Below the pieces are notes generated by a model. That model was not told the DNA's origin. It searched no databases and saw only the letters and a list, made by a program, of their open reading frames with translations. A DNA stretch of 64,000 nt from Bacteroidota bacterium (GTDB taxonomy: Bacteria > Bacteroidota > Bacteroidia > CAILMK01 > JACPUW01): the NCBI GenBank assembly GCA_016192035.1, contig JACPUW010000041.1, positions 81,235-145,234 on the forward strand, in the 5' to 3' direction. Shown piece by piece: positions 6,090 to 37,800 of this stretch. Both the position numbers and the translations under genes were made by a program. How positions within the stretch are numbered: the first letter of the stretch is position 1; every line of letters begins with the position of its first letter.

Positions 6090-9000
6090 TCACCTCGCCA
6101 ATATCAATTTTAGCATGGACGATTGATTGCCCATTTCCACCTGCACAAAATACATTCCTGCCCTTAGGGTCTCAGCATTGTCTATCAATGGTATATCATG
6201 CGTTCCTGCCAATAGGTTGCCTTCCCAGGCCGTCCCTACTTGTTGGCCCAGTTCATTGAATACGGTCATGCGCACCCGCCCTTCCTGGGCCATCACTAGG
6301 GCCGCGCGTACCGCACGGTCAAATGGATTGGGGTAGAGGCTTATCATATTTTCGGCACCAGCCGTTTGGCCCAGGCTGGTATATACGTTCACCGATACCG
6401 AGCGCTCATGCACGCTGGCGCAAAAATTCTCGCTGAGTACCGTGAGCTTTACTAAGTAAGTGCCATTGGATGAGTAGGTGTGCCTGGGCTCCTGCAGCAC
6501 AGATGTGTTGCCGTCACCAAAGTCCCAATAATAGCTGGCATCGCCTAAATGCTTGGGTATAAACCTAAACTTGGCACCGGCCTGCTGTATAAACCCAAAA
6601 CTGCTGTCAGGATATGGGTAAATCTCAATAACCTTGTAGGCTGAATCCACACAGTCGCCCTCCCAGGCTATAAATCCTATGGGGAATTTCCCTGCCTTGC
6701 CATAGTATTTCACGGGTTCGCGCAGGTTGGAGCTACTTCCATCAAAGAACAACCACTTGTACGACAAGTTGCCATTGCTGGTAAGGTTTATAAACTGCAC
6801 TTTCTCCCGTGCGCAGGAATTGGCAAACTCAAAGTCCAGGTTTTTGGGGCCCACGGCCAGGTCAATGGTCTTGGCCGCACTGTCGGCGCAGTTGTCATTC
6901 CATGTGGTGTACACCACCTCATATATCCCAGTGCTGGCATACAGATGCTTGGTTCCCAATAAGCTATTGTTGGTATTACCGTCACCCAAGCGCCACTTGG
7001 CGCCCTTTAGCGCGCCTGGGCCGCTGGTGGCTTCAAAGTAGGTAGTATCGCCTAGGCAGCCACCGGTAAACTCAAAGGCCGGCTCTGGTTTGTCCAGAAG
7101 GGTAATGGTCTGCGTGAGAGAATCCATGCACCCGGCGTTGGATGTGGCCACCAGGGTTACATCATAGGCCCCGGCACTGTCAAAGGCGTATTTGCCTTGC
7201 ATGTCTGTTGATGTCAGTTCGCTGCCAAAGCGCCATAGGTAGGTAGCCGTGCCCTGTTTTAGGGTAGTTTGGTTTGTAAATACCACCGAGTCGCGCTGGC
7301 AACTTATGCTGGGCCAGCTAAAGGAAGCCACCGGTACCGACTCGAATTGTATCACTTTTTTGGCCGTATCCCAGCAATTATTTGAGGTGCTTACCTTGAG
7401 CCACCCGGTGGCAGTGCCACTGTTGCCATAGGTATGGCTGGGGTTGTTGGCCGTGCTGGTGTTGCCTAAACCAAAATCCCATAGCACGGTGGCAATACTG
7501 CCTGAGGGTGTGCTTTTATGGGTGAATGATACGGCTTGGTCAGGGCAGCTGGCCGTGTAACCAATTGCAGCTATGGGGTTTTCAAATATGGTGGCCAATA
7601 AAGTTGAGGAATCAGCACATCCTTTGTCGCTTATGGAAACAAGCTTTACCCAGTACGTGCCTGGAGCGGCATAGCCATGTTTGGGTTTTGCGCCTATTTG
7701 CTTGGTGCCGTCGCCCAGGTCCCAAAAGTGGGTCATGCTGCCGCTAGAAATGGTGCTCAAGTTATTGACCCTTAATTGGCTGGTGGCACAGGTGTCATAT
7801 ATGGCATAGGAGGCATTCGGCATGTCAAGCACCCTTATGGCATGAACGGCCAGGTCTGCACACCCTTTGTCGCTGGTGGCTTTAAGTTGGACACTGTAGT
7901 TGCCGGCCTGTGCATAAAGGTAGCTGGGGCTTGTTTGGGTGCTGCTAAAACCATCGCCAAAAGACCATAAGTAACTTATAGTACCACTGGCTATGGTGGT
8001 GGAGTTGGTAAATGTTACGGCAGTTCCCTCACAAACCGTATCGGCTACAAAGGCTGCCACGGGCATGGCGTACTGAGCCAGGTTTTTGGTGGTGGAGTCC
8101 ACGCATCCCTTGTCGCTGGTAGCCTGGAGTACCACGCGGTATGTGGCCGGTGCCCCGTAGGTATATATCGGCGAACTGCTGGTGGTTTTGTAGCCATTGC
8201 CCATAGACCATACGTAGTTCATCGGGCCGCCTCCACTTATGCTTGAATTGTTGGTAAACGAAACTGCGGTGCCCTGGCACCCGTCGGTAGCCGAAAATCC
8301 TGTAACAGGCTTTGGATACACCACCAGGCCTTGTTCAAAGGTGTCGCGGTTGCCTCCCTGCTGCAAAACGATAAGCCGTACCGTATATGTTCCGGCTGTT
8401 TTGTACTTGTATGTTGGATGCTGGCCCGTACTGGTCCCTCCATCGCCAAAATCCCAAACATAGCCCGTCACCGTACCGCAACTGGTGCTGCTTGTATTGG
8501 TAAACCGGGCAGTATCGCCAAGGCAAACATTGGAAACCGCAAAACCAGCCCGTATCACATTGTCAACCAAAATGCTCTTTGAAGACGAGTCGGCGCATGA
8601 TTTGTCGCTGGTAGCCACCAGTTTCACTGCATAGCTTCCTTTGGCCAGGTAGGTATGGGTGGGTGACTTTACCGTTGACTGGTTTCCATCACCAAAATCC
8701 CATTTCCATCCCGTAATACTGCCGGTTGAAATGGCGCTTCGGTTGGTAGGGGTAAAGTCATCACCAAGGCATATGTTGCTCACATCAAAATCAATAGTTG
8801 GTCGTGGCCACACGCCGGCACTGGTATAGGCTGTGTCGCGGCAGCCAGAATCTGACACGGTGATCAATGTTGCCTTGTAAAATCCGGCTATGTTGTATGT
8901 GTGTGTTGGTTGTGCTTGGGTGGCCGTGAAACCATCTCCAAAAGCCCAATCATAGCTGGCAATACTTCCGCTCGCCAAGCTTGTCAAGTTGGTGAATTGG

Positions 9001-12000
9001 TTTTCCAGGCCCTGGCATACGCTGTCGGCCAAGGCTTTGGCTATGGGGGCGGGGGAAACCCACAGGCCTCGGCTGATAGTGGCCACACACCCCAAGTTAG
9101 AAGTGGCCGTAAGCCGTACGGTATAGTTGCCAGCCGGATACGAATGTGTAGGGGCTTTTGAAGTACTGGTGGTCATATCTCCCAAGTCCCACGCATATGC
9201 CAAGGTGCCCGCCGTAATGGCACTGCCATTGGTGAACTGGACTGAATTGTATTCGCAATCAGCTATATAAGAGAATTTTACTTGCGGTAAATAATGAATA
9301 TCCAATCCGGTATATTCTAAGGAATCTGTACAGCCATGGTTGCTGGTAGCCACCAATTTTATAGTGTAGGGCCCTGGCGACGTATAGGCATGGCTGGGCA
9401 CTAGGCCACTGTACTTATTGCCATCCCCCATATGCCAGGTATAGTTTCCTATGCTCCCGCTGGTTATCGTGGACTTGTTTTTTACGCGCACCGCCGATTG
9501 GGCACAGGTATCATGGGCCGCAAAGGCTACCTGAGGGTTTGGGTAAATAACCACCGTTTTTATTAGGGTGTCTTTCCTGCCCGATTTTTCGGTTACCACC
9601 AGTTGCACATTATAGCTGCCGGCCTTGGTATATAGGTGGCTGGGGCTCAGTTGACTGGAGATGTTGCCATCGCCAAAGCTCCACTGATAGCTGCTTACCT
9701 TGCCGCATGAGGCATTGGTAGTGTTGGTAAATGAAACCTGGCTGCCTACACATACATTGCTAAAGGTAAATCCTGGAACCACCACGTTGTCAACCGTTAT
9801 GCTTGTTGTGGCCGTATCGCGACAGCCTTTATCACTGGTGGCCACCAGTGATATGTCATACTTGCCCTTGGCCATATAGTAGTGGAAAGGTGATGTGGCC
9901 GTGGAGCTATTTCCGTCCCCAAAATCCCAGGCATAACCACCTATGCTCCCGGTAGCTATAGAGCTTGTATTCAATGGGTACAAGGTGTCGCCAAAGCACA
10001 CGTTGCCGGCAGTAAACCCTGCTTGCGGCATGGGATATACCTGTATGTTCATAGTGGCAGTGTCCGTACAACCTGAATCGGTGCGCACTATTTGGCTTAT
10101 TAAATAAGTGCCAAAATTCTGGTACAGATGTTTGGGATTCATGGTGTTGTGTCCAAATCCATCGCCAAATTGCCATATATGGCCCATTACCTTGCCCGCA
10201 GCCACGCTTGACTGATCTACGAAAGACGCGCTATCGGCCAAACAGGTATTGGCCGAGGTGAATCCGGCGGTTGGCTTGTGGTGTACCACCCGCACCACTT
10301 TGTATTTTGACACGCACCCACTGTCGGTGGTGGTGGTGAGCACCACGGTATATGAACCGGGATTAATGTACCGGTGGATAGGGTCAGTAGCCACCGAAGT
10401 ATTTCCATCGCCCAATTTCCAAGTGCTTACGTAACTGCCAGAAGATAAAGTTGTTTTGTTGTCAAAGGCCATTGGCTGTCCCTCACAGGTATTATCGGCT
10501 ACAAACCGTGTGTTTGATACAGGGTTGATATACAGTTTTTTCGATTCGGTATCGGAGCAGCCCTGGGCTGAGGTGGCCGTGAGGCTTATGTTGTAGGTGC
10601 CGGTGGCCGAGTAGGTATTGCTTGGGTTGTTTGATGATGTTTTATTGCCATCACCAAAATCCCAGAGGTATGAAAGTGTGCCGCTGGCAATGGTTGAACT
10701 GTTCAGGAATACCGTCGTATCGCCCAGGCAGGTTTTGGCATGGGTAAAGCCCGCTACTGGGTTGGGGTGTACTTCCACGGTCTTTGTTAACCTTTCTTCG
10801 CAACCGTTGTTTGAGGTTGCTATCAAAAGCACGTCATAACTACCCGTAGTGGCATAGGTGTGGGTAGGCGAGGCAAGGGTGCTGGCCGATCCGTTGTCAA
10901 AATCCCACAAATAGCTAAGGCTGCCTGACGGTATGGACGAAGTATTGGAAAATGTAATTCCCTGGCCCAGACAGGCATCGGGAGCACTAAAGGCGGCACT
11001 TGGCGAATAGTACACCGATACGGATTGGGTGCTGCTGTCATTGCAGCCGCCGCTGCTGTAGGCCACCAATTTTACAGGGTATGTGCCAATTGCTGAGTAT
11101 AAGTGGCTGATTTGCTTACGGGTACTGGTGCTGCCATCGCCCAGGCTCCATTTATAGGTGAGCAAGCCAGAGGCTATGCTGGAATTATTTGTAAATAATA
11201 TACTGTCGTTCAGGCATTTGCCGCTTACGGTAAAGCTCGCCGTGGGCAGGTCATATACTTTTACCGTCTTCTCCACCGAGTCCTTGCAGCCGCTGGATGC
11301 CGTACTCACCAGTTTCACAGTGTAAGTACCTGTGCTGGAGTATATATGAGTAGGGCTGGTTAGGGTGCTTGTTTTGCCATCGCCAAAATACCAAAGGTGG
11401 GTCATAGAGCCTGAGGGTACCGATGAGCCATTGGCGTAATTGACAGTGGTGCCTCCACAAGCTGATGGCACGGTAAAGTTGGCAATGGGGGTGGGAAGCG
11501 CGCTCACCGATTTCTTTGCGGAGTCCACACAGCCTTTGTTGGAAGTGGCCACCAGGGTAACCGAATACGAACCAGGACTGGCATACAGGTGATTGGGGTT
11601 CACGGCGGTACTATTGGTTTTGTCGCCAAATCGCCATAGGTAGGAGAGGGTGCCGCTGCTTATGGTTGAGCTGTTGTTAAAAGATATGGCCACATTGGCA
11701 CACTGGTTGGCGGCGCTGAACCCCGGGACTGGCCGGGGGTGAATGGTTACCTGTTTGCTTGAAATACTGCTACATCCGCTGCCTGAGGTGGCTGTAAGCG
11801 TTACGGTGTAGGTGCCTGCCGAAGCATAGGTATAATTGGGGCTTGTTTGGGTGCTGCTAAATCCGTCGCCAAAAGACCAGGCGTAGCTCAGGCTGCCGCT
11901 TGATATGCTTGAATTGTTGCTAAAGGAAACGGAAGACCCCAAGCAAGCGTTGGAAACGCTAAAGCTCGATTTGGGCAACTCATAGATATCCAAACGTTTG

Positions 12001-15000
12001 GTGAGGGTGTCCTTACAACCAAAATTGGAAGTGGACACCAGGCGCACATCATAGGCCCCATGGGTGGCATAGGTATGGCTAGGAGCACTTTGTGAACTTT
12101 TGTTGCCATCGCCAAAATCCCATTGATAGGATGAAATAGACCCCGAACCAATTGAAGAGTTGTTGGTAAAGCTCATTTGCTTACCGGCGCAGGTATTGCT
12201 GGCGGTAAAATTTGATGAGGGATAGGGGTGGGCCACCACCTGCTTGGTAATGCTGTCTTTAACCCCACCTTGCTGATATACAACCAGTTTTACGTTGTAT
12301 GTACCAGCACTTGCGTATTTGTGCCGGGGATTTTCCCTGGCTGAATTGTTGCCGTCACCAAAATCCCAATAATACGATGTAACAGAGCCACAACTTATAT
12401 TGGTGGTATTCTGGAAAAGGGTAGAATCGCCCAGGCACTTTTCGGTAACAATATAATTGGGTGCCAGTTTGCTGTCCACTATCACAGGAATGGTCATGGA
12501 GTCCTTGCATCCCAAATTGCTGGTGGCGATAAGCCGTACATCAAAAGTGTCTTTTGTTAAATACTTGTGGAATGGGTGTTGTGCCGACGAGGTATTCCCG
12601 TCACCAAAGTGCCATGAGTAGCTGCTTATGCTGCCCGATTTGATGGAAGAATTGTTGACCGGATATAGGGTGCTGCCAAAACATACATTGCTTACATCAA
12701 AATCCACTTCAGGATTCACGTTTACCACTGCATTGGCCAGGGCGGTATCAGTACACCCATTGTTGGAGTACACCACAAAGCTTACGGGGTATGTATTGGC
12801 CGTATCATACAGGTGGGTAGGCGATTGGGCAGAGCTGGTAAAGCCATCGCCAAACACCCAGGCATAGGCCGTGAGGCTACCACTTGCTATACTGGTGCTG
12901 TGGTCAAACGTGGTAACAACACCTTCACAAACAGTGCTTACCGATATAGAAGTGGCAGGCTTGTCATAGACCTCCACCGTTTTGCCCAGGCTGTCGCGGC
13001 AACCTTTCACCGATTCAATCACCAGTTTCACCTGGAATGTGCCGCTAGTGGCGTACAGGTATTTGGGTTGTGCCTGGCTTGAACCATTTCCGTCACCAAA
13101 AGTCCAGGTATAGGTATCAATGGTATCAAGCTGGATAACACTGCTATTGGTAAATACTGCCGAGTCGCCCAAACACACATTGGCGGTGGCAAAGGCTGGC
13201 TGGGGTTTGCTAAACACGCCCTGGGGCCTGGTGGCCTGGCTGCTGCATCCATTGGTAAGTGAAGCGGTTAGCATCACGGTGTAGTTTCCTATGGCCCCAT
13301 AGAGGTAGGCTGGATTTGTAGATGTAGAGGTATTTCCATCGCCAAAGGACCAGGCATAACTTGGGGTAAATCCTAGTGGAATGGTAGAAGTGTTGGTAAA
13401 GTGCGTGCTGTCGCCCTTGCAGGTAAATACAGAAGAGAAGGAGGCCGTTGGTTGCGCTGAGATGACCACTGCTGAGGTGGCAGTGTCAGCGCAGCCCTCG
13501 CTGCTGGTAGATACCAGCACTACATCATAAGTCCCTGTGATGGCGAATGTATGTTTTGGATGCCTGCGGGTGGACGTGCTGCCGTTGTCAAAATCCCAGA
13601 GGAAACTGGCTCCGGTGGCCGTGGCTATGCTCGAAGTATTGGTGAAGGTGGTAGAATCACCATGACAAAGCTTGGACACCGTCAATGATGCCAATGGCTT
13701 GGTGTTTAAGGTGATAGATGTGGTTGTGGAGTCTTTGCACCCGCTTGCCGCCGTTACCACAAGTTTCACGCTATACACCCCACTGGTGGAGTATTGGGTC
13801 TTGGGATTGGTGAGGGTAGATGTTTTTCCATTGCCAAAAGTCCATTTCCAGTTACTTATGGTAGAGCTTGTTATGGTTGAACCATCGGTAAAAGTGATGT
13901 CTTCGCCGGTGCAGGCGCCACTGACCGAAAAGGCCGCTTGGGGAAACTCATAGGAATGGATGGTGGCGTATGCCGTGTCGTTGTTGCGGGTAGAATCGTT
14001 CGGCAGGTCGGTCCAGGTTTTCAATTGGTAAGCCGTATAGGCCGTCAAATTGGCCCTGGTAGCGAAAGTGAATGCTATAGTGGCATTTGACAACAGTGCC
14101 GAGGAGAGTATAAAAGTGTCATTTACCTCGGTTCCGCTGCCAATTATGTAGCTTACTGGTATGAGTTCGCCCGTAGGCACTGTTTTGTTTCCCAGGTTTT
14201 TAACTAGAATTTGAACCTGCTCAACCGATGTGCGCTCGCAGCCCGTGCTGGGTGAGAGTATGGCGCTTACGCCCAGGTCGTATAGATCGGAGTATTCGTC
14301 GGCTCCCACGTCAGGGGTTAGTGGGTTGCGTATGTCGCCCTCATAGTCGGTGGTGATGCCAGTGGTTGCGGCACCCCAATTGGACAATTGCTTGGATGTG
14401 GGGGCTATGGTGAGGTCGGTGGCCGAACGATAACCGGGATCACCTTCCTTCGAATCCCTGTTTATGCCGTTCATTCCAGATTTCCAACTGCTCAGACTGC
14501 CGTAAGTTGTGCCGTTATATACCACAAAGTTGTTGCTCGTGCCCTTGTAGTAATTGTTGAAATCCAATGCCGTAAACGAGGCGGTTAGGGAATTGAACAG
14601 GTCGGCAGAGGTGGATTTGGCCAGTGAATTATTGCGAAAATCATATCCGTTGCCATACCTGAACCGTACTACCGATCCACTATTGCCTTTGTTCATATTC
14701 AGGCTGTTGTGTAGTACTTTTATGTTGTAACTATAATAAATATCCAAACCATAATTGTCCGATGAGGTCATTTGGTCGCTTATCAGGTTATTGGCTATGG
14801 TGGACGACTCTTCTTCAAAATAATAGTTTTCATACAGCATGTACACGCCTTCCATACCAGATTTTATGACATTTGAAACCAAATTGGTTTGGCTGGAGAG
14901 GTATATGAAAAGTTGATAATACTCAAGTCTAAGGGAATCAAATTGGCATTGCTCTATGCGCAGGCCGCCCTGGTAAATGGCATATATGCCATATACCCGT

Positions 15001-18000
15001 CCTTGGTAGAATTGGCAGCCCACAAAGGCATTGTTATAAATGAGGGAGGAAGCGCCAATTCCGTCGAGCCTGGCGCAGTAATAACCGCCGCGCATAAGGC
15101 AATTTTCAAACAAGTTGTTGTTCCCGGCATTCCCCACCGTGGGCAGTCCGTCATCACTTATATACACCGGAATACAATAACCATTGAGCGCATCAAGCGG
15201 CAGCTGGAATTGACAATTGGTAAACGTATTGTAATCAGCCTGTTCTGATAATCTTGCGCACCGGCCATAGGTGTTGCTGAAGTTTTTTACTATGATGTTT
15301 TTAAAAGAGATATGGTCAGCTCCGCGCAAACGGATAACCGACATGCTGTCGGCGCGGCCGGTATAGTGAATACGTACATTGCCCTGTGATTCGCCAATAA
15401 AAGAAATGGTATTGATGCTGGAGGCACCTGTGATTTCGCTTATGGATACGCGCTCGTTGTAGGTGCCATTCTTTACCAGGAAAGTCACTGGGCCGCTCAC
15501 GCCGCAACCCAGGGAACGAAGGGCTCCCCTAAACGATTTGAAATCACCATTTCCTTTTTTATCAATGACATAGGTTCCTTTGGCCCCAGGGCACATACTC
15601 TTGCACTTGCGTTGCTTGGTCAGTGAGTCGGGGTCGGGTTTATAGAAAGTATCAAGCTGAGCGCAAAGTTGATAGGTTTTGCCCACGCTTATGGTCCAGG
15701 GCTTGCTGAATGTATGTAAGTAGGTTTGGCCGGGCAACAAGCTTACGATAACAATGGTATCGCGCACGGCCAAGGTACCATCTATGTGGTAGCTCAGCAC
15801 GGCCGTATCGTTGATTAGGGATTTGATTCCGGCATTTTTTAACACCGTCCTTACCTCGTTGCTGCCAATCAATGGAACAATGGGGGAGTCAAGTGCAATC
15901 AGGTCAAGGTCATACGGGCTTACATAATACTCATCCGCACCTATGTCCACTTTTTTATCGGGGGCAAACGGTCGGGCCTGTCCGTCAAAATCCCAATTGA
16001 TATTGATGCTTTTCACCCCCGCATTGTTGAGCTGGGCACCAGAGGCATGCAGGTCATCAATGGCATTGAAATTAGGGTCGCCTTCCTTGGAGCTTTGGTT
16101 GAATTGGGTCTTTACCGTTTTCCAGGTAGCCACATCGGTAAAAGTCAGGCCGTCGTGATAATACTTGGCAGCTCCTGAAGCCTGGTAGTTGTTATGGTCT
16201 ATGGCACCCGCGCTGATGTTTCCATAGTATTTTGAAAAACAAACCCCTTCACCTGACAAAAAGGCGTTGTTCTTGGCTTGGCTGTTGTTGCAGTAGTATA
16301 GGTTGCAGGTTGCATAATAGGGGTTTGAGTAGGAGTTGGTGGTATATACAGAGTTGTGGAAAATATTCACGTTATACCCGGCGTAGGCATAAATACCAAT
16401 TTGATAATTTGGATCCAACATGTTGGTTATCATATTATTGGATAAAAGACTAAAACTGTTTTGGTAATAGTAGTTTTCCAAGTATAGGTATATGCCGTAC
16501 CTGCCGCCTTCAATATAGTTGGCGTCAAAGGTGTCTTTAGAACAGTAGTACGCAGCTAGTCCAAAGGCCGTATAGTCCCTAGGCGATGACACCCGGTTGT
16601 TGGCCAGTTTAGATTCGGTGAGATAGGCTATATCCAGCCCCACGTAGTAATACTTCCTTACCGTATTGCCCTTGACCAAAATGTTGGCAGAAGGGGTATT
16701 GGTTCCCGCGCCACTAATCCTAATGCCGTGGCTGCCACCTACTATGATGTTGTTTTTAAATGAAAGGCCGTAGGATGTGTTGCCCGGAATGGTAGATGCG
16801 CTGGAAGATACCGAGTTGGCCACCAATATGCCCGTGGTGGCGTAGTTGGCCGTTACTGAGTCAAGGTATATGGCGCAGTTTTCTATGCGTACGTCATGGC
16901 AGTTTTCGCGCAGCCAGAAACCATTGGCTACTTGGTTGCCGTCGTTTTTAAGGCTTATGTTTTTGAATATGATGTAATCGGCATCATTCATAAGCACCAC
17001 CGAAGGAAGGGAGGAAGTGCCGGTATATTGCAACACTACCTGGTCGCGGTCTGTGCCTTCAAAAGTGATGGTATTGGTAGCCGAAGACCCCAAAACTTCC
17101 TTTATTTCAATACGTTCCTTATATACTCCTGGCTTTACCTCAAACTTGATAGGGCCGGCTATGCCACAATCGAGGGAGGACACGGCAGCCTTAAAGGTTT
17201 TGTAATCCCCGCTTCCGCTGGGGTCTATCACAAAAGTTCCCGTTCGGCCCACACATTTAGTGGCGCAAAACTTGTCCACGCTGGCCGAGTCGGGGTCGCC
17301 GCTAAGGCCGGGGCTGATTTCCACACATACACTAAAGGAGCCCGATGCACTCACAGCCCAAGCCTTGCTAAAGTAAAGAGTGGTGGAAGAACCAATGGTT
17401 AGGTTTGAAATTACCGCCGTATCACTTACCCAACTGCCATTGTCAATTTGGTACTTGACAAAAATGGTATCGTTAAATGTTTGACTGCCATTGTTTTTTA
17501 AGGAAATTCCCAAGAAATTATTGCCAATGGACGCGGTAACAGGGTAGGGTATGCCCTCTATGTCCATGTCCACCGGTGCCACATAGTATTCATATGCCCC
17601 AATATCCGGTTTCGTATCGGGTGCCTTGGGACGGCCATTGCCGGCCAGGTCGGTGCTGGCATAGCCTTTTCGGGCCCTATTGTTCAATCCGGGGGTTTTG
17701 GGCACCAAATTGCGCTTTCCCGCAAATCCCGGGTTGTCATTGGTAGAGTTCTGGTTCTGTCCGCTCACCGCGCTCTTCAACTGGGCTAGGTTGTTGTAAG
17801 TCGTTCCTTGCCAGCTAATAAGATTTCCATTGGTCCCTGCGTGATAATTATTGTTGTCAATGAGTGTATTGCCCAATGATCCGGCACCCAGGTAAAAGAC
17901 ATTGTTGTTGCCGCTGGCCTTCAAGTTGTTATTGACTACAATATGGTTGCTGGGCTCAGAAAAGTACATGCATGAATAGGCAAAGTCCGAAACCGTGCCG

Positions 18001-18983
18001 TTGGTGTGTACGGCATTGTGATAAACCCTAAGGTTGTAACAAGCACTGGCCAGTATGCCGGCTTGGTAACTGGCATCGGCAAAGTCGCTGATTTCATTGT
18101 TCACGATCATTAAAGAGTCGGACCGGTTGTAGTAGTTGTGCAGGTATAGGTACATGCCAAACCTGCCCATATATAGTTTGGAATTGGTAATGGCGCCACC
18201 TGCACACTGATTGGTATAAATGCCATAGGCATAGTACAATATGGGGTCTTGAAACCTACAGTTGTTCAATCGGATATTTGAGGCATACACCGCGTAAAGC
18301 CCATACACATATTGGCCGGTGAACAATACGTTGTCGAAAGTGAAATTCTTGGAAAGCAAGCTGTTGTTGGTGCCATAAATGATGGTCCCAAAATAGCCGC
18401 CCTCAAGTATGCAGTTTCTTACCGTTACATCCTCACCATTGTCGCCCGCACTGTTATATACTGTTCCTGAAATGCTTATGGGTATGCAGTCGGCTCCAAC
18501 GCCCGAACGCGACGCCACCTCTACCACACAATTGAGCACTGAGATGTGGTGAGCCCCAGCGGTGATGTGTATGCCATAACCGTAGGTATTGTTCGTGCTC
18601 TGTATGGTCATTTCCTTAAACCCGAAATAGGCAGCGGCATTCACTTTCACCACTGATTCATACTGTGAACAGTTGTAATTCAGCAATACCTTGCTGGAAT
18701 CCTTGCCTTGGAAAGTAATCGTATTGGTGGCTGATGAACCCGATACATAGTTCAGGGTTATTTGTTCGGTGTAGGTGCCATTGGCCACATTGAATACCAC
18801 AGCACCGCTCACCCCCACGGAGTTGAGCTGGTTTACTGCTGCGGTGAATGTCTTGAAATTGGTGGTGCCACTGCCGTTGGGGTTAATGGTATAGTTGCCA
18901 GATAACTGGCCCAGGGCTGGAAGTGCAAGCAAGCTAAGAAGGGATAGGAGGCTAATGGGGGCAATTCGGGATTTCATGTTCAT
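6090..18983 (-). CDS. giant T9SS-exported surface protein: beta-helix blocks, ~31 PKD modules, sorting domain
   Basis: About 4,300 residues. The start is taken at the ATG ending at 18983 (or 18977), where a signal peptide (MNMKSRIAPISLLSLLSLL) follows a well-spaced promoter; the track start at 19058 lies upstream of it. Three N-terminal blocks each open with a GxYxIxxxGxGxFKTF-type strand, run as asparagine-rich parallel beta-helix repeats, and close with DIGAxEYY or DVGADEY, separated by CARDB-like linkers. Then come about 31 PKD modules (WxFGDGxxS, then PxHxYxxxGxYxVxL) and a type A T9SS C-terminal sorting domain starting LYPNPF. The likely role is adhesion or extracellular matrix. No catalytic residues are recognisable. 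It is monocistronic, with a divergent neighbour. Confidence 0.93.
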   Translation of the reverse strand: MNMKSRIAPISLLSLLSLLALPALGQLSGNYTINPNGSGTTNFKTFTAAVNQLNSVGVSGAVVFNVANGTYTEQITLNYVSGSSATNTITFQGKDSSKVLLNYNCSQYESVVKVNAAAYFGFKEMTIQSTNNTYGYGIHITAGAHHISVLNCVVEVASRSGVGADCIPISISGTVYNSAGDNGEDVTVRNCILEGGYFGTIIYGTNNSLLSKNFTFDNVLFTGQYVYGLYAVYASNIRLNNCRFQDPILYYAYGIYTNQCAGGAITNSKLYMGRFGMYLYLHNYYNRSDSLMIVNNEISDFADASYQAGILASACYNLRVYHNAVHTNGTVSDFAYSCMYFSEPSNHIVVNNNLKASGNNNVFYLGAGSLGNTLIDNNNYHAGTNGNLISWQGTTYNNLAQLKSAVSGQNQNSTNDNPGFAGKRNLVPKTPGLNNRARKGYASTDLAGNGRPKAPDTKPDIGAYEYYVAPVDMDIEGIPYPVTASIGNNFLGISLKNNGSQTFNDTIFVKYQIDNGSWVSDTAVISNLTIGSSTTLYFSKAWAVSASGSFSVCVEISPGLSGDPDSASVDKFCATKCVGRTGTFVIDPSGSGDYKTFKAAVSSLDCGIAGPIKFEVKPGVYKERIEIKEVLGSSATNTITFEGTDRDQVVLQYTGTSSLPSVVLMNDADYIIFKNISLKNDGNQVANGFWLRENCHDVRIENCAIYLDSVTANYATTGILVANSVSSSASTIPGNTSYGLSFKNNIIVGGSHGIRISGAGTNTPSANILVKGNTVRKYYYVGLDIAYLTESKLANNRVSSPRDYTAFGLAAYYCSKDTFDANYIEGGRYGIYLYLENYYYQNSFSLLSNNMITNMLDPNYQIGIYAYAGYNVNIFHNSVYTTNSYSNPYYATCNLYYCNNSQAKNNAFLSGEGVCFSKYYGNISAGAIDHNNYQASGAAKYYHDGLTFTDVATWKTVKTQFNQSSKEGDPNFNAIDDLHASGAQLNNAGVKSININWDFDGQARPFAPDKKVDIGADEYYVSPYDLDLIALDSPIVPLIGSNEVRTVLKNAGIKSLINDTAVLSYHIDGTLAVRDTIVIVSLLPGQTYLHTFSKPWTISVGKTYQLCAQLDTFYKPDPDSLTKQRKCKSMCPGAKGTYVIDKKGNGDFKSFRGALRSLGCGVSGPVTFLVKNGTYNERVSISEITGASSINTISFIGESQGNVRIHYTGRADSMSVIRLRGADHISFKNIIVKNFSNTYGRCARLSEQADYNTFTNCQFQLPLDALNGYCIPVYISDDGLPTVGNAGNNNLFENCLMRGGYYCARLDGIGASSLIYNNAFVGCQFYQGRVYGIYAIYQGGLRIEQCQFDSLRLEYYQLFIYLSSQTNLVSNVIKSGMEGVYMLYENYYFEEESSTIANNLISDQMTSSDNYGLDIYYSYNIKVLHNSLNMNKGNSGSVVRFRYGNGYDFRNNSLAKSTSADLFNSLTASFTALDFNNYYKGTSNNFVVYNGTTYGSLSSWKSGMNGINRDSKEGDPGYRSATDLTIAPTSKQLSNWGAATTGITTDYEGDIRNPLTPDVGADEYSDLYDLGVSAILSPSTGCERTSVEQVQILVKNLGNKTVPTGELIPVSYIIGSGTEVNDTFILSSALLSNATIAFTFATRANLTAYTAYQLKTWTDLPNDSTRNNDTAYATIHSYEFPQAAFSVSGACTGEDITFTDGSTITSSTISNWKWTFGNGKTSTLTNPKTQYSTSGVYSVKLVVTAASGCKDSTTTSITLNTKPLASLTVSKLCHGDSTTFTNTSSIATATGASFLWDFDNGSTSTRRHPKHTFAITGTYDVVLVSTSSEGCADTATSAVVISAQPTASFSSVFTCKGDSTHFTNTSTIPLGFTPSYAWSFGDGNTSTSTNPAYLYGAIGNYTVMLTASLTNGCSSQATRPQGVFSKPQPAFATANVCLGDSAVFTNSSVIQLDTIDTYTWTFGDGNGSSQAQPKYLYATSGTFQVKLVIESVKGCRDSLGKTVEVYDKPATSISVSTVCEGVVTTFDHSTSIASGSLTAYAWVFGDGFTSSAQSPTHLYDTANTYPVSFVVYSNNGCTDTALANAVVNVNPEVDFDVSNVCFGSTLYPVNNSSIKSGSISSYSWHFGDGNTSSAQHPFHKYLTKDTFDVRLIATSNLGCKDSMTIPVIVDSKLAPNYIVTEKCLGDSTLFQNTTNISCGSVTSYYWDFGDGNNSARENPRHKYASAGTYNVKLVVYQQGGVKDSITKQVVAHPYPSSNFTASNTCAGKQMSFTNNSSIGSGSISSYQWDFGDGNKSSQSAPSHTYATHGAYDVRLVSTSNFGCKDTLTKRLDIYELPKSSFSVSNACLGSSVSFSNNSSISSGSLSYAWSFGDGFSSTQTSPNYTYASAGTYTVTLTATSGSGCSSISSKQVTIHPRPVPGFSAANQCANVAISFNNSSTISSGTLSYLWRFGDKTNSTAVNPNHLYASPGSYSVTLVATSNKGCVDSAKKSVSALPTPIANFTVPSACGGTTVNYANGSSVPSGSMTHLWYFGDGKTSTLTSPTHIYSSTGTYTVKLVSTASSGCKDSVEKTVKVYDLPTASFTVSGKCLNDSILFTNNSSIASGLLTYKWSLGDGSTSTRKQISHLYSAIGTYPVKLVAYSSGGCNDSSTQSVSVYYSPSAAFSAPDACLGQGITFSNTSSIPSGSLSYLWDFDNGSASTLASPTHTYATTGSYDVLLIATSNNGCEERLTKTVEVHPNPVAGFTHAKTCLGDTTVFLNSSTIASGTLSYLWDFGDGNKTSSNNPSNTYSATGTYNISLTATSAQGCSDTESKKLYINPVSNTRFVADNTCEGQPMAFDNKTTLSSGSYVSTWKLGDGNTSVATDPIHRYINPGSYTVVLTTTTDSGCVSKYKVVRVVHHKPTAGFTSANTCLADSASFVDQSSVAAGKVMGHIWQFGDGFGHNTMNPKHLYQNFGTYLISQIVRTDSGCTDTATMNIQVYPMPQAGFTAGNVCFGDTLYPLNTSSIATGSIGGYAWDFGDGNSSTATSPFHYYMAKGKYDISLVATSDKGCRDTATTSITVDNVVVPGFTFSNVCVGSQVSFTNTTNASCGKVSSYQWSFGDGNISSQLSPSHLYTKAGSYNVQLVVTEKSGRKDTLIKTVVIYPNPQVAFAAHDTCAQSAVRVKNKSTITSGSIGNYTWHMGDGNKYSGLVPSHAYTSPGPYTIKLVATSNHGCTDSLEYTGLDIHYLPQVKFSYIADCEYNSVQFTNGSAITAGTLAYAWDLGDMTTSTSKAPTHSYPAGNYTVRLTATSNLGCVATISRGLWVSPAPIAKALADSVCQGLENQFTNLTSLASGSIASYDWAFGDGFTATQAQPTHTYNIAGFYKATLITVSDSGCRDTAYTSAGVWPRPTIDFDVSNICLGDDFTPTNRSAISTGSITGWKWDFGDGNQSTVKSPTHTYLAKGSYAVKLVATSDKSCADSSSKSILVDNVIRAGFAVSNVCLGDTARFTNTSSTSCGTVTGYVWDFGDGGTSTGQHPTYKYKTAGTYTVRLIVLQQGGNRDTFEQGLVVYPKPVTGFSATDGCQGTAVSFTNNSSISGGGPMNYVWSMGNGYKTTSSSPIYTYGAPATYRVVLQATSDKGCVDSTTKNLAQYAMPVAAFVADTVCEGTAVTFTNSTTIASGTISYLWSFGDGFSSTQTSPSYLYAQAGNYSVQLKATSDKGCADLAVHAIRVLDMPNASYAIYDTCATSQLRVNNLSTISSGSMTHFWDLGDGTKQIGAKPKHGYAAPGTYWVKLVSISDKGCADSSTLLATIFENPIAAIGYTASCPDQAVSFTHKSTPSGSIATVLWDFGLGNTSTANNPSHTYGNSGTATGWLKVSTSNNCWDTAKKVIQFESVPVASFSWPSISCQRDSVVFTNQTTLKQGTATYLWRFGSELTSTDMQGKYAFDSAGAYDVTLVATSNAGCMDSLTQTITLLDKPEPAFEFTGGCLGDTTYFEATSGPGALKGAKWRLGDGNTNNSLLGTKHLYASTGIYEVVYTTWNDNCADSAAKTIDLAVGPKNLDFEFANSCAREKVQFINLTSNGNLSYKWLFFDGSSSNLREPVKYYGKAGKFPIGFIAWEGDCVDSAYKVIEIYPYPDSSFGFIQQAGAKFRFIPKHLGDASYYWDFGDGNTSVLQEPRHTYSSNGTYLVKLTVLSENFCASVHERSVSVNVYTSLGQTAGAENMISLYPNPFDRAVRAALVMAQEGRVRMTVFNELGQQVGTAWEGNLLAGTHDIPLIDNAETLRAGMYFVQVEMGNQSSMLKLILAR
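6380..13950 (-). repeat. tandem PKD module array (~31 copies) inside the giant gene
   Basis: Counting WxFGDG-like turns by eye gives about 31 modules of roughly 80 residues. Most carry one Cys near the module start (CxGD/CxGT) and one before the second half (GCxD), consistent with one disulfide per module. Higher-order similarity is visible: the module type with TNTTNxSCG recurs at about 12.22-12.47, 9.53-9.78 and 8.28-8.53 kb, each preceded by a module of the VCFGxxxYPxN or ICLGDDFTPxN kind. Confidence 0.85.
14290..18890 (-). repeat. three homologous right-handed beta-helix blocks in the giant gene
   Basis: Each block opens with a similar segment (GNYTINPNGSG, GTFVIDPSGSG, GTYVIDKKGNG), then NGTYTEQI/PGVYKERI/NGTYNERV and a SSATNTITF-type strand. 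Irregular Asn-rich turns typical of pectate-lyase-like parallel beta-helices follow. Each ends in a DxGAxEY motif. Blocks span roughly 18.89-17.58, 17.23-15.92 and 15.59-14.29 kb, separated by CARDB-like linkers of about 110 residues. Confidence 0.75.
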
Positions 18984-18999
18984 GGGGTCTGTACCTGAG

Positions 19000-19007
19000 C
19001 AAAAGTA
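19000..19007 (-). promoter_or_regulatory. promoter of the giant T9SS protein gene
   Basis: On the minus strand TACTTTTG (-7, TAnnTTTG) is preceded by TTG (complement of 19025-19027) with 17 bases between, the Bacteroidota sigma-A arrangement. It lies 16 bases before the ATG at 18983, supporting that start. Confidence 0.6.
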
Positions 19008-19174
19008 GCCAATTTGTTTGGGTACAACTTGATGTACATCAAAGGCGCAGAAGCGCATGGTGTGATAATCAACCTATTGAATGATTGGCATTTATTGATT
19101 CTTTTAGGACAAGGGGTGTTCTTTTTGACAGGCCAAGTGCAGTTATTGGGCAAACCTTCACATGGCCGGGTAGA

Positions 19175-20618: not shown

Positions 20619-21263
20619 ATGATAGCAATAAACCATATAGACCCCTGGGTGAAAAGGGTATTCTTTGTGGTACAGGCAGTGGGATTTGTAGGCATACTTT
20701 CTACCGGGTGGCATGGGCTAACCTTGTCGCTCACGCCTGTCAATCTATTGTTTGTGAGCGTGGTACTGCTTTGGTTTCACAGGGGCTGGCACCTGGGTGA
20801 AGCTGTATGGATGTTGGCCACCTTTGCGCTGGGCTACTTGGTAGAGGTACTCGGCGTACACACAGGTTGGGTATTTGGCCAATATGATTATGGCCAAACC
20901 CTAGGGCCACAGATAGCCAAAGTGCCACTGGCCATGGGGCTCAACTGGTTTATTATGTGTTATGTATCCACCCGTTTTGCCGCTCATTTGGGCTTAAACG
21001 CCTGGAAGGGTGCTGTGTTGTCGGCAGCCATGATGGTAGCAATAGACATACTAATGGAGCCAGTGGCCATGGCATTGGATTTTTGGCATTGGGAAAACGG
21101 CCAAATTCCTTATCAAAACTACCTGGCGTGGTTTGTAGTGTCGTTCGGTATCAACTATTGGTGGTTTGGGTTATCAAACAAGGGATTAAACAATTTTTCC
21201 CATTGGGTGTTGGGTTACCTGGCCTTGTTTTTCGCGGTTATGCACATGGCCTTTGCGGCCTGA
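20619..21263 (+). CDS. carotenoid biosynthesis membrane protein, CruF-like (DUF422)
   Basis: A 214-residue polytopic membrane protein with about seven hydrophobic segments. The stretches HTGWVFGQYDYG and DILMEPVAMALDFW are characteristic of the CruF/DUF422 carotenoid hydratase family, which adds water across the 1',2' double bond of acyclic carotenoid ends (for example in myxol- or bacterioruberin-type pathways). The exact substrate here is unknown because no crtI, crtB or crtY gene lies in the window. It is 29 bases upstream of a B12-dependent light-sensing regulator in the same orientation, which fits light-controlled pigment synthesis. Confidence 0.85.
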   Translation: MIAINHIDPWVKRVFFVVQAVGFVGILSTGWHGLTLSLTPVNLLFVSVVLLWFHRGWHLGEAVWMLATFALGYLVEVLGVHTGWVFGQYDYGQTLGPQIAKVPLAMGLNWFIMCYVSTRFAAHLGLNAWKGAVLSAAMMVAIDILMEPVAMALDFWHWENGQIPYQNYLAWFVVSFGINYWWFGLSNKGLNNFSHWVLGYLALFFAVMHMAFAA

Positions 21264-21292
21264 CAAGCCAAAGTATCTAACCTTTAGCAAAC

Positions 21293-22237
21293 GTGAGCAA
21301 AGACAAACAAAACGGTATTTTTTCAATTAAGGACCTAGAACGCCTAACCGGTATCAAAGCGCACACACTCAGGATATGGGAGCAGCGGTACCACATCATA
21401 GAACCCAAGCGTACCGATACCAATATCAGGTTTTATGACGACCAAGACCTGAGGTATGTGCTGAATATAGCCATGCTCAACGGCCATGGCATGCGCATAT
21501 CAAAAATTGCGGAGCTGAGCAGGCAAGAAATCAATACACGGGTACTCACTGTGGCCGAACGGTCGCAAGTGGATAGCGATATGCTTAACGCGCTCACTAT
21601 CACTATGCTTGACCTTGATGAAGATCGATTTGAGCGCATACTGAGCAATGTGGTGATTAAGTTGGGATTTGCCCATGCTGTGACCAAGGTGATATATCCG
21701 TTTATGTACCGGGTGGGCATACTCTGGCAAACGGGCAGCATAGTACCGGCGCAGGAGCACTTTATTTCAAATTTGGTACGGCATAAACTTATAGTGGCGT
21801 CTGATAGCATGATGCCCAAAAAGATAGCCAACCCAAAAAAGTTTGTGCTTTTCTTGCCCGAAGGCGAACTTCACGAAATAGGCTTGCTATTTGCCAACTA
21901 CTTGTTTAAGGTGAACGGACACAAGACCATATATCTGGGGCAAACAGTGCCGTTTGAAGATCTCGATATCATTTCAGATGTATATCATCCTGATTTTCTG
22001 TTTACCGTGCTAACCTATGAAACAGGCTTGGATGAGGTGAAGGCATATATTGAAGCACTCAGCAAGCGGTTTTCTTCCAAAACCATATTAATTGCAGGCA
22101 CCAGGGTAGAAGAGTCGCAAGTAAAAGCCACCTGGGGCAATGTGGTTTTTGTAAACGATTTAGCTGATATGGAGCGGTTTATAGGGCATTTGCAAAAAGT
22201 GGAGGTCCCTTTAATTCCTGCTGATATACCCCAATGA
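21293..22237 (+). CDS. CarH/LitR-type MerR regulator with B12 photosensor domain
   Basis: 314 residues, GTG start. Residues ~9-80 are a MerR winged helix (IKDLERLTGIKAHTLRIWEQRY). Residues ~90-170 form a helical domain with W145-x9-E155-H156, the Wx9EH signature that caps adenosylcobalamin in CarH. Residues ~183-300 are a B12-binding Rossmann domain with E192-L-H194-E-I-G197, matching the ExHxxG base-off motif. CarH-type proteins bind DNA as AdoCbl-loaded tetramers in the dark and release it when light breaks the Co-C bond, usually derepressing carotenoid genes. The position directly after the CruF-like gene supports that role. The residue after W145 is Gln, where Thermus CarH has His as I recall, so the photochemistry may differ. 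Confidence 0.9.
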   Translation: MSKDKQNGIFSIKDLERLTGIKAHTLRIWEQRYHIIEPKRTDTNIRFYDDQDLRYVLNIAMLNGHGMRISKIAELSRQEINTRVLTVAERSQVDSDMLNALTITMLDLDEDRFERILSNVVIKLGFAHAVTKVIYPFMYRVGILWQTGSIVPAQEHFISNLVRHKLIVASDSMMPKKIANPKKFVLFLPEGELHEIGLLFANYLFKVNGHKTIYLGQTVPFEDLDIISDVYHPDFLFTVLTYETGLDEVKAYIEALSKRFSSKTILIAGTRVEESQVKATWGNVVFVNDLADMERFIGHLQKVEVPLIPADIPQ

Positions 22238-34846: not shown

Positions 34847-37800
34847 ATGATGTTACAAGAAAAGTATGTGCCTAAGAACCACATTAGAATGGTTACTGCG
34901 GCATCCTTATTTGACGGACATGACGCCGCCATTAACGTGATGCGGCGCATCATCCAATCAACCGGGGTGGAGGTCATTCATTTGGGACATGACCGAAGCG
35001 TGGATGAGGTGGTTTCTTGCGCTATTCAAGAGGATGTGCAAGCCATAGCCATGACCTCATATCAAGGCGGCCACATGGAGTATTTCACCTATATGTTTGA
35101 TTTGCTCAAGGAAAGGGGAGCAGGGCACATCAAAATTTTCGGTGGTGGAGGTGGAGTAATCCTACCTTCTGAAATTGAACAGCTTATGAATTACGGTATC
35201 GCCAGGATATACTCCCCTGACGATGGCCGCGAAATGGGCTTGCAGGGCATGATCAACGATATGGTGCGCCAGTGCGATTTTCCCATTGGCGATCAATTGA
35301 ATGGACAACTTGAGAAGGTAGGTGAGAAATCGGCCCTGGCTATTGGCCGCCTCATTTCTGCCGCCGAGAATTTCCCAAGCCTGCACGCCGACATGCTTTC
35401 AGGAATTGAGCAAAAGGCACTACAGGCGCAAGTGCCCGTGCTGGGCATTACAGGCACGGGAGGGGCTGGCAAATCCTCGTTGGTTGATGAACTTGTCCGG
35501 AGGTTCTTGCTCGATTTTACCGACAAATCCATTGCAATACTTTCCGTGGATCCATCCAAAAGGAAAACAGGTGGTGCCCTACTGGGTGACCGTATCAGGA
35601 TGAATGCCATTAGGTCATCTAGGGTATATATGCGTTCACTGGCTACCAGGCAGTCTAATTTGGCCCTGTCGGCACATGTGCGCCAGGCACTCAACATAGT
35701 GAAAGCTGCAGGCTTTGACTTGGTCATTTTGGAAACCTCTGGTATAGGTCAGTCTGATACCGAGATTGTGGACCACTCTGATGTGTCTCTCTATGTGATG
35801 ACTCCTGAATACGGCGCAGCAACCCAGTTGGAAAAAATTGATATGCTTGATTTTGCCGACGTGATTGCCATAAATAAATTTGACAAAAGGGGGGCTCTGG
35901 ATGCCCAGCGGGATGTGGTAAAGCAATACAAGCGAAACCACCAGGTTTTTCACCTGCCCGACGGGAAAGTCCCCGTGTTTGGCACCATCGCATCGCAGTT
36001 CAATGACCCCGGCACCAATCGTTTGTACCGGCATACCATAGATTTGGTACAGGCTAAAACCGGTGCGCCATTGCACTCAAACTATGCGGTAGAAGTCGGT
36101 ATGTCAGAAAAGATCTACATAATACCGGCCACCCGTACCCGCTACCTTTCTGAAATAGCCGAAAACAACCGTCAGTACGATGTTTGGGTTGATAAACAAG
36201 CCAATATAGCCGAAACGCTTTATGCCCTCCACACTTCTATGGAAGTGATCAAGGCCAGTGGGCCAAACGTGGCAATTGATGAAGTGCAAAAAGTTTACGA
36301 GCAGACAAGCATGGAGCTTGACCCCAAGAACAAAAAATTGATAGAAAACTGGCCTAGCACACGCCAACGCTATCGCAGTGAGGAGTTTATTTTCAGTGTG
36401 AGGGGCAAGGAATTGCGATTGAAAACACATACGGAATCACTCTCACATACCAAAGTGCCAAAAGTGAGTACTCCCCGATACCGGGGTTGGGGTGATGTGC
36501 TCAAGTGGCAACTTCAAGAGAATGTGCCAGGGGAATTTCCTTATACATCGGGTTTGTTTCCGTTCAAAAGGGAAGGGGAAGACCCTACCCGCATGTTTGC
36601 CGGGGAGGGTGGCCCTGAACGCACAAATAAGCGCTTTCACTATGTGAGCCAAGATATGCCGGCCAAACGGCTAAGTACCGCATTTGATTCGGTAACCCTA
36701 TATGGCGCAGACCCCGATTATAGGCCCGATATCTATGGTAAGATTGGGAATTCGGGCGTAAGTGTGTGCTGTTTGGACGATGCCAAGAAGCTATACTCCG
36801 GGTTTAACCTTTCTGACCCCAAGACATCTGTTTCCATGACCATAAATGGGCCAGCCCCCATGTTGCTTGGGTTTTTCCTCAATGCGGCCATTGATCAGCA
36901 GTGCGAACGCCATATCAAGGAACATGGCATGGAACAAGCCGTGCGCCAACAAATTGAATCCATGTACGCAGCGCGGGGCGCATCGGTGCCCACATACCAG
37001 GGTGCATTGCCAATGGGTAATGATGGACTGGGGCTTATGTTGCTGGGCACATCGGGCGACAAGGTGCTAGACCCTGAGGTATATCAGCGCATAAAAACGG
37101 AGACCCTACAGCAGGTGCGCGGTACGGTCCAAGCCGATATTCTCAAGGAAGACCAGGCGCAAAACACCTGTATCTTTAGCACAGAGTTCGCACTTAGGCT
37201 CATGGGCGATGTGCAGGCCTACTTTATTGATCACAAGGTCAGGAATTTCTATTCCGTTTCCATATCAGGTTACCACATTGCCGAAGCAGGCGCCAACCCT
37301 ATTACCCAGCTGGCTTTTACCCTGGCCAATGGATTTACCTATGTAGAATACTACTTGAGCAGGGGTATGGATATCAATGACTTTGGGCCTAACCTTTCTT
37401 TTTTCTTTTCCAATGGTATAGACCCTGAGTACGCGGTGATAGGCCGGGTGGCGCGCAGGATTTGGGCTAAGGCCATGCGCCTAAAGTATGGGGCCAACGA
37501 AAGGGCCCAGATGCTCAAGTACCACATTCAAACTTCTGGAAGGTCACTCCACGCCCAGGAAATTGATTTCAACGATATACGCACCACCCTTCAGGCCCTG
37601 TATGCCATATACGACAATTGCAATTCACTGCATACCAATGCATATGATGAAGCCATTACCACTCCTACCGAAGAATCGGTGCGCCGGGCCATGGCCATTC
37701 AATTGATCATAAACCGGGAGTTGGGCTTGGCCAAAAATGAAAACCCTTTGCAGGGTTCGTTTATCATTGAAGAGCTCACCGACTTGGTGGAGGAAGCCGT

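Follow-up and report, generated by a model that had tools for sequence, protein, structure and literature searches.

We report that a CarH/LitR-like MerR-type protein, encoded beside a CruF-family carotenoid gene in the 64,000-nucleotide stretch of Bacteroidota DNA analysed here (the window), is fairly probably a light-released repressor of the B12 type that acts in trans, as a phylum-specific variant of CarH/LitR. The wider proposal, that Bacteroidota possess a phylum-wide B12-type switch with no bis-His adduct, an altered tail pocket and one operator, through which crt and proteorhodopsin genes would be jointly controlled, sometimes in trans, appears to us evenly balanced. The CarH/LitR-like identity of the regulator is right, with sequence, predicted fold and carotenoid context in agreement, while its DNA binding, its adenosylcobalamin (AdoCbl) binding, light as its signal and repression are properties that we infer.

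The regulator and the adjacent CruF-family gene

The two genes and the conserved elements of the regulator are located as follows:
20619-21263 (+): CruF-family carotenoid gene, 214 aa, matching PF04240 (Caroten_synth) with 96.4 bits against a cut-off of 25 (Pfam)
21293-22237 (+): MerR-type CarH/LitR-like regulator, 314 aa, GTG start, recognized through Pfam and structure comparison
21356-21391 (+): predicted DNA recognition helix KAHTLRIWEQRY, residues 22-33, kept across the Bacteroidota clade
21716-21730 (+): G142-x-x-W145 adenosyl cap (GxxW signature) followed by Q146, the latter at the position of Thermus CarH His132
21755-21760 (+): E155-H156 of the Wx9EH motif, with E in 149 and H in 141 of 149 homologues
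21863-21883 (+): G191-E-L-H194-E-I-G197, lower axial His motif (GxxH, ExHxxG), with H194 in 141 of 149
21938-21952 (+): G216-x3-P220, final element of the light signature, with G216 in 146 and P220 in 137 of 149
22007-22099 (+): altered distal B12 motif, V239-x-T241 and A268-G269, where CarH has SxV/T and GG

An initial annotation of this DNA had described a CruF-like gene followed after 29 bases by a MerR-type gene, and this arrangement was borne out, with the spacer spanning positions 21264-21292. With its membership in the PF04240 family, the product of the first gene is a putative CruF-type carotenoid hydratase. Its scores against the CruF equivalog models of NCBIfam fell below the cut-offs (82.5 of 154.7 bits for TIGR03460 and 38.4 of 400 bits for NF045693). 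A PF04240 gene is found near the MerR gene in 37 of 161 related loci and directly upstream of it in 28. Pairs of CruF and MerR genes without the rest of the cluster occur in Spirosoma, Runella, Arundinibacter and others; the layout in the window is thus a known partial form, and a gene pair of this kind is fairly commonplace among Cytophagales-like bacteria.

Searches with Pfam detected the MerR_1 (54.4 bits, cut-off 21.6) and B12-binding_2 (39.4 bits) domains of the regulator above their cut-offs, and its Rossmann part scored 20.3 bits against B12-binding (PF02310), under the cut-off of 32.1; the CarH equivalog NF052513 of NCBIfam gave 93.5 bits, below its cut-off of 400. The nearest solved structures in a sequence search were those of Thermus CarH, and the AlphaFold model (mean pLDDT 89.1) gave its best Foldseek matches to CarH (5c8e/5c8d), with further matches to the H132A mutant and to the B12 domains of SasPcob and CtMerR. 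The counterpart of the recognition helix in CarH and CarA is RxWERRY (PMC9304148). A published light signature consists of GxxW, EH, GxxH and GxxxP (PMC11796333), and all its elements are present in the regulator (G142..W145, E155-H156, G191..H194 and G216..P220). The initial annotation had placed correctly every residue that it singled out, namely W145, Q146, E155, H156, E192, H194 and G197. Its claim of complete CarH signatures holds for the light signature, Wx9EH and ExHxxG and fails at the distal B12 motif: an older definition of CarH demands Wx9EH plus ExHx2Gx41SxV/Tx22-27GG (PMC8156234), of which the regulator keeps the spacing and has changed two of the four distal residues (S239V and G268A).

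The conservation of W145, E155 and H156 in 146, 149 and 141 of 149 near homologues from Bacteroidota, respectively, indicates that the CarH residues of the regulator are not there by chance. Serine at position 239 is seen in only 16 of these 149, as against 11 of 12 members of a more distant Bacteroidota group, and bulky residues (Val, Tyr, His, Ile) are often found there across the near-homologue clade; the altered distal motif is therefore a clade trait. In base-off B12 proteins the residues of the distal motif line the pocket for the nucleotide tail. With these residues altered, cobalamin binding by the regulator appears likely from its sequence, but not assured. No second CarH-like gene was found in the genome that contains the window (2.98 Mb, 44 contigs). 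The window also encodes another B12-binding domain (51.9 bits, at about 34886-35185) inside a 1134-aa open frame, and on the reverse strand (6090-19058) a 4322-aa open reading frame with many repeated W.FGDG-like units, apparently of the PKD type, and a C-terminal end resembling a secretion tag.

The carotenoid operon and gene neighborhoods

A search for crt genes elsewhere in the genome, as suggested in the initial annotation, was rewarded with a sigma-crt operon: the phytoene genes lie on a separate contig, C31, in the order ECF sigma factor, crtI, crtB, CrtYcd-type cyclase, a glutathione peroxidase family gene (L013:5611-6165), crtZ-like gene and glycosyltransferase, with the genes overlapping or nearly so. 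The crtZ-like gene drew no match in Pfam or NCBIfam, and we read it as CrtZ from four His motifs (HX4H, HX2HH, HX4H and HX2HH) seen in its sequence. Contamination was rejected as an explanation for C31 given its match to the window in G+C (0.479 vs 0.478) and in tetranucleotides (r 0.95). The protein encoded by crtI (L013:7671-9185) is 59% identical to desaturases from distant Bacteroidota lineages (L108, L115) and only about 33% identical to the near-relative enzymes, and crtB shows 62% identity to the crtB of near relatives; this contrast of a distant-type crtI with a near-type crtB suggests that crtI was likely replaced within the operon.

Among the 161 homologue loci, the recurrent neighbors other than CruF were ECF sigma factors (73), crtI (65), crtB (65) and crtZ-like genes (54). 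Algoriphagus-type loci (L044-L047, L124-L135) present the same genes in one run, CruF - crtZ-like (o163) - MerR - sigma - crtI - crtB - cyclase, whereas the set of the window genome is split over two contigs and includes a crtI of the distant type. In Bacteroidales-type loci (L153-L168, L171-L200) we noted many pairs of MerR and ECF sigma genes, often with the operator described below, and no crt genes nearby.

A spaced inverted repeat upstream of sigma, MerR and crtI genes

An unbiased 7-mer count recovered TGTTTAA/TTAAACA from 66 of 68 sigma-upstream regions, where 12 were expected. The half-sites form inverted pairs whose starts are 23 or 24 apart, and two such pairs frequently stand at a distance of 44. 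Across 2.40 Mb from 162 MerR loci, TGTTTAA-N-TTAAACA occurs 70 times with a gap of 16 and 15 times with a gap of 17, and none of the other gaps between 8 and 29 occurs more than once. Eighty of these 85 copies are situated just upstream of a sigma (58), MerR (15) or crtI (7) gene. A TGTACA-type operator, as in Pseudomonas LitR, was not enriched in the upstream regions. The repeat was also considered as an ECF sigma promoter, a reading that was rejected because flavobacterial loci without a sigma gene also have it, in front of crtI or MerR.

The 2.98 Mb window genome contains a single copy of the motif, at C31:110694-110724 (L013:9695-9725), 2 bp before the start of the sigma gene; a reversed control pattern had no copy in the same 2.98 Mb, and a looser form with 12 fixed bases brought up nothing in this genome beyond the C31 site. 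Near the CruF and MerR genes of the window only matches with three mismatches were seen, 5 and 4 in number against 5.2 and 5.2 expected. Given the clear site on C31 and no above-chance site in the window, mobility shifts on the DNA upstream of 20619 and 21293, as proposed in the initial annotation, would be aimed at the wrong target.

We then considered sites away from regulator genes in forty stretches, which were picked from the listed sites and hence not sampled at random. In most cases a gene begins no more than 250 bases downstream of the site. Among the annotated first or operon genes we noted rhodopsin, ten fasciclin-domain proteins, additional ECF sigma factors, a single photolyase operon, and a 6-pyruvoyl tetrahydropterin synthase together with GTP cyclohydrolase I. 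Others are unrelated, such as a tRNA methyltransferase and Hsp90, and some of these are probably chance or divergent neighbors. Fasciclin-domain genes stand behind the operator in L205, L209, L217, L221, L227, L228, L232, L234, L237 and L238, and rhodopsin genes in L207 (with a lycopene cyclase gene next), L210, L213, L248-L258 and L260. Among 17 rhodopsin genes from 77 regulator-bearing genomes, eight have a perfect upstream site and four a site with one mismatch, making 12 of 17, as compared to 0 of 340 shuffles; three of the 12 cases (G194, G146 and G356) prompted the test, and their exclusion leaves 9 of 14. The window genome itself has no rhodopsin gene. Photolyase genes were discarded as direct targets, with 0 of 29 showing an upstream site at one mismatch or fewer.

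Proposed mechanism and its alternatives

In the dark, the regulator would bind AdoCbl between its four-helix bundle (W145, E155, H156) and its Rossmann domain (H194), assemble, and in this assembled form repress through TGTTTAA-N16/17-TTAAACA. Its target in the window genome would be the sigma-crtI-crtB-cyclase-(GPx)-crtZ operon headed by the ECF sigma gene; because the only operator copy is on C31, the window protein would act in trans, and the contact of the operator with the start of the sigma gene suits repression. Light would then split the Co-C bond and release the repressor, allowing carotenoids to be made. The weakest step of this reading is AdoCbl as the chromophore, owing to the altered distal B12 motif. 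The reading is also weakened by the sub-cut-off scores for PF02310 and NF052513, by the finding that no more than 77 of 138 homologues with an intact signature show a site (at most one mismatch) within 400 bp of their gene, by the want of an above-chance site in the window, and by the scarcity of the site at photolyase genes, which would be a natural target of light control. A cobalamin adenosyltransferase (PF01923) is encoded in the window genome, as in each of the 90 regulator-bearing genomes of the comparison given below; as this gene is nearly class-wide it does not discriminate, and the use of AdoCbl is permitted by it, not proven.

The main rival takes the regulator for a B12-independent descendant, comparable to Myxococcus CarA or the class II LitR of Pseudomonas. 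Such a protein would have kept the fold and the same operator, but would leave AdoCbl unused and be controlled by a partner or by some other ligand (another corrinoid or a tetrapyrrole). We consider this unlikely, while granting it real weight: S239V and G268A are clade-wide, the Rossmann domain is under the Pfam cut-off, and class II LitR is held to have lost B12 binding and yet controls light genes via LOV proteins (PMC9758184). Residues of the B12 signature are broken in the homologues L074, L076, L056, L079, L092, L098, L117 and L120, and two of these, L074 and L076 with EQ for EH, nonetheless keep perfect operators. However, the adenosyl-cap and lower-ligand residues W145, E155, H156 and H194 are jointly intact in 138 of the 149 near homologues, which argues against a B12-independent descendant, in that such retention is unlikely if the cap and lower ligand were useless. 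CarA has lost the Trp and its flanks (PMC9304148), whereas the Bacteroidota clade has not, and no LOV-like gene is seen among the annotated recurrent neighbors, these being a minority of the neighbor clusters.

An improbable alternative is that the operator belongs to another factor, the ECF sigma or some further regulator, and that the window protein controls something else. The strongest enrichment directly before the sigma gene and the window's want of an above-chance site would fit such a reading. On the other hand, a long dyad is not the form of an ECF promoter, the inverted repeat retains its fixed gap of 16 or 17 before crtI or MerR in sigma-less loci, and the motif follows the regulator across genomes and recognition-helix type. 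In a comparison of 393 Bacteroidota genomes, 77 of the 90 with the regulator have a motif site as against 23 of the 303 without it, and within the same class the figures are 70 of 77 and 6 of 29, with the reservation that these genome counts are not phylogenetically independent and that regulator-adjacent sites helped to define the motif. The same-class genomes with the regulator hold 221 motif sites, compared to 24 of a composition-matched control, and an adjacent site was found for 0 of 12 homologues with a different recognition helix.

A CarH of the classic Thermus type, forming a bis-His adduct in light, to which the overall similarity to TtCarH might point, is scarcely credible given Q146 in place of His132 and the occurrence of His in 0 of 149 near homologues. 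In a phmmer alignment Q146 falls opposite the His that follows the Trp of Thermus CarH, as the initial annotation had stated in predicting a different light-state adduct; what does not stand is any peculiarity of the residue, since Gln is the commonest at this position (86 of 149, followed by Leu 26, Val 9, Ile 9, Met 6 and others) and is thus a clade trait and not a local oddity. With Gln at 146 the bis-His adduct of Thermus CarH is not available as the light state, and the sequence contradicts such an adduct here unless another His were to serve. The light state likely involves water or hydroxo ligation, by analogy with CtMerR or TtCarH H132A. SasPcob, a proven B12 photoreceptor, has Gln and CtMerR Arg at the His132 position and both are light-responsive (PMC11796333). 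TtCarH H132A adopts a hydroxo state in light, near 352 nm as compared to 359 nm for the bis-His state of the wild type, and mostly remains tetrameric (PMC10442372), while an earlier study cited therein saw its disassembly. The persistence of the tetramer counts against our preferred reading of a light-released repressor, in that a His-less protein might switch differently.

Significance and comparison with known systems

Light-induced pigmentation has been reported among Bacteroidota, as in Chryseobacterium lacus, for which a new regulator was proposed after none of the known ones turned up (PMC7064467). Our literature search, with subscription journals largely outside its reach, found nothing on the motif or on CarH control of proteorhodopsin in Bacteroidota; the operator, its unique place in the genome and the rhodopsin link, in which the interest of this system lies, were absent from the literature searched. 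An operator linking a CarH-like family to crt operons and rhodopsin pump genes makes light sensing in Bacteroidota directly and cheaply testable. In addition, the clade supplies a natural collection of candidate B12 photoreceptors without the His132 switch, the worked examples that we found of switching without His132 being a mutant and proteins of other phyla.

The operator of Thermus CarH consists of direct repeats, unlike the spaced inverted repeat proposed for the window regulator. The two proteins share the MerR head, the four-helix bundle with Wx9EH, the Rossmann domain with ExHxxG and the control of carotenoid genes (Thermus thermophilus CarH, PDB 5C8D/5C8E/5C8F), and differ in Gln for His132, VxT...AG for SxV/T...GG and an identity of only about 20% over the model. 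CtMerR of Chloracidobacterium (8JBS) and the photocobilin SasPcob (8J2W) resemble it as light-responsive B12 domains with the same signature and no His132 (PMC11796333), but they come from other phyla and SasPcob also binds bilin. The class II LitR proteins of Pseudomonas (PplR1/PmlR2) are likewise MerR-type light repressors, with paired TGTACA half sites and light-induced folE (PMC9758184). Their operator, T(G/A)TACA-N12-TGTA(C/T)A, has a similar two-half-site plan to TGTTTAA-N16/17-TTAAACA and a different sequence, and of the B12 domains they keep just the four-helix bundle, working with a LOV partner. Finally, CarA/CarH and CarQ of Myxococcus xanthus likewise join a CarH-type repressor with an ECF sigma factor in carotenoid control (PMC8156234), whereas in the window genome the sigma gene comes first in the crt operon and follows the proposed operator, with no CarQ-type anti-sigma partner seen.
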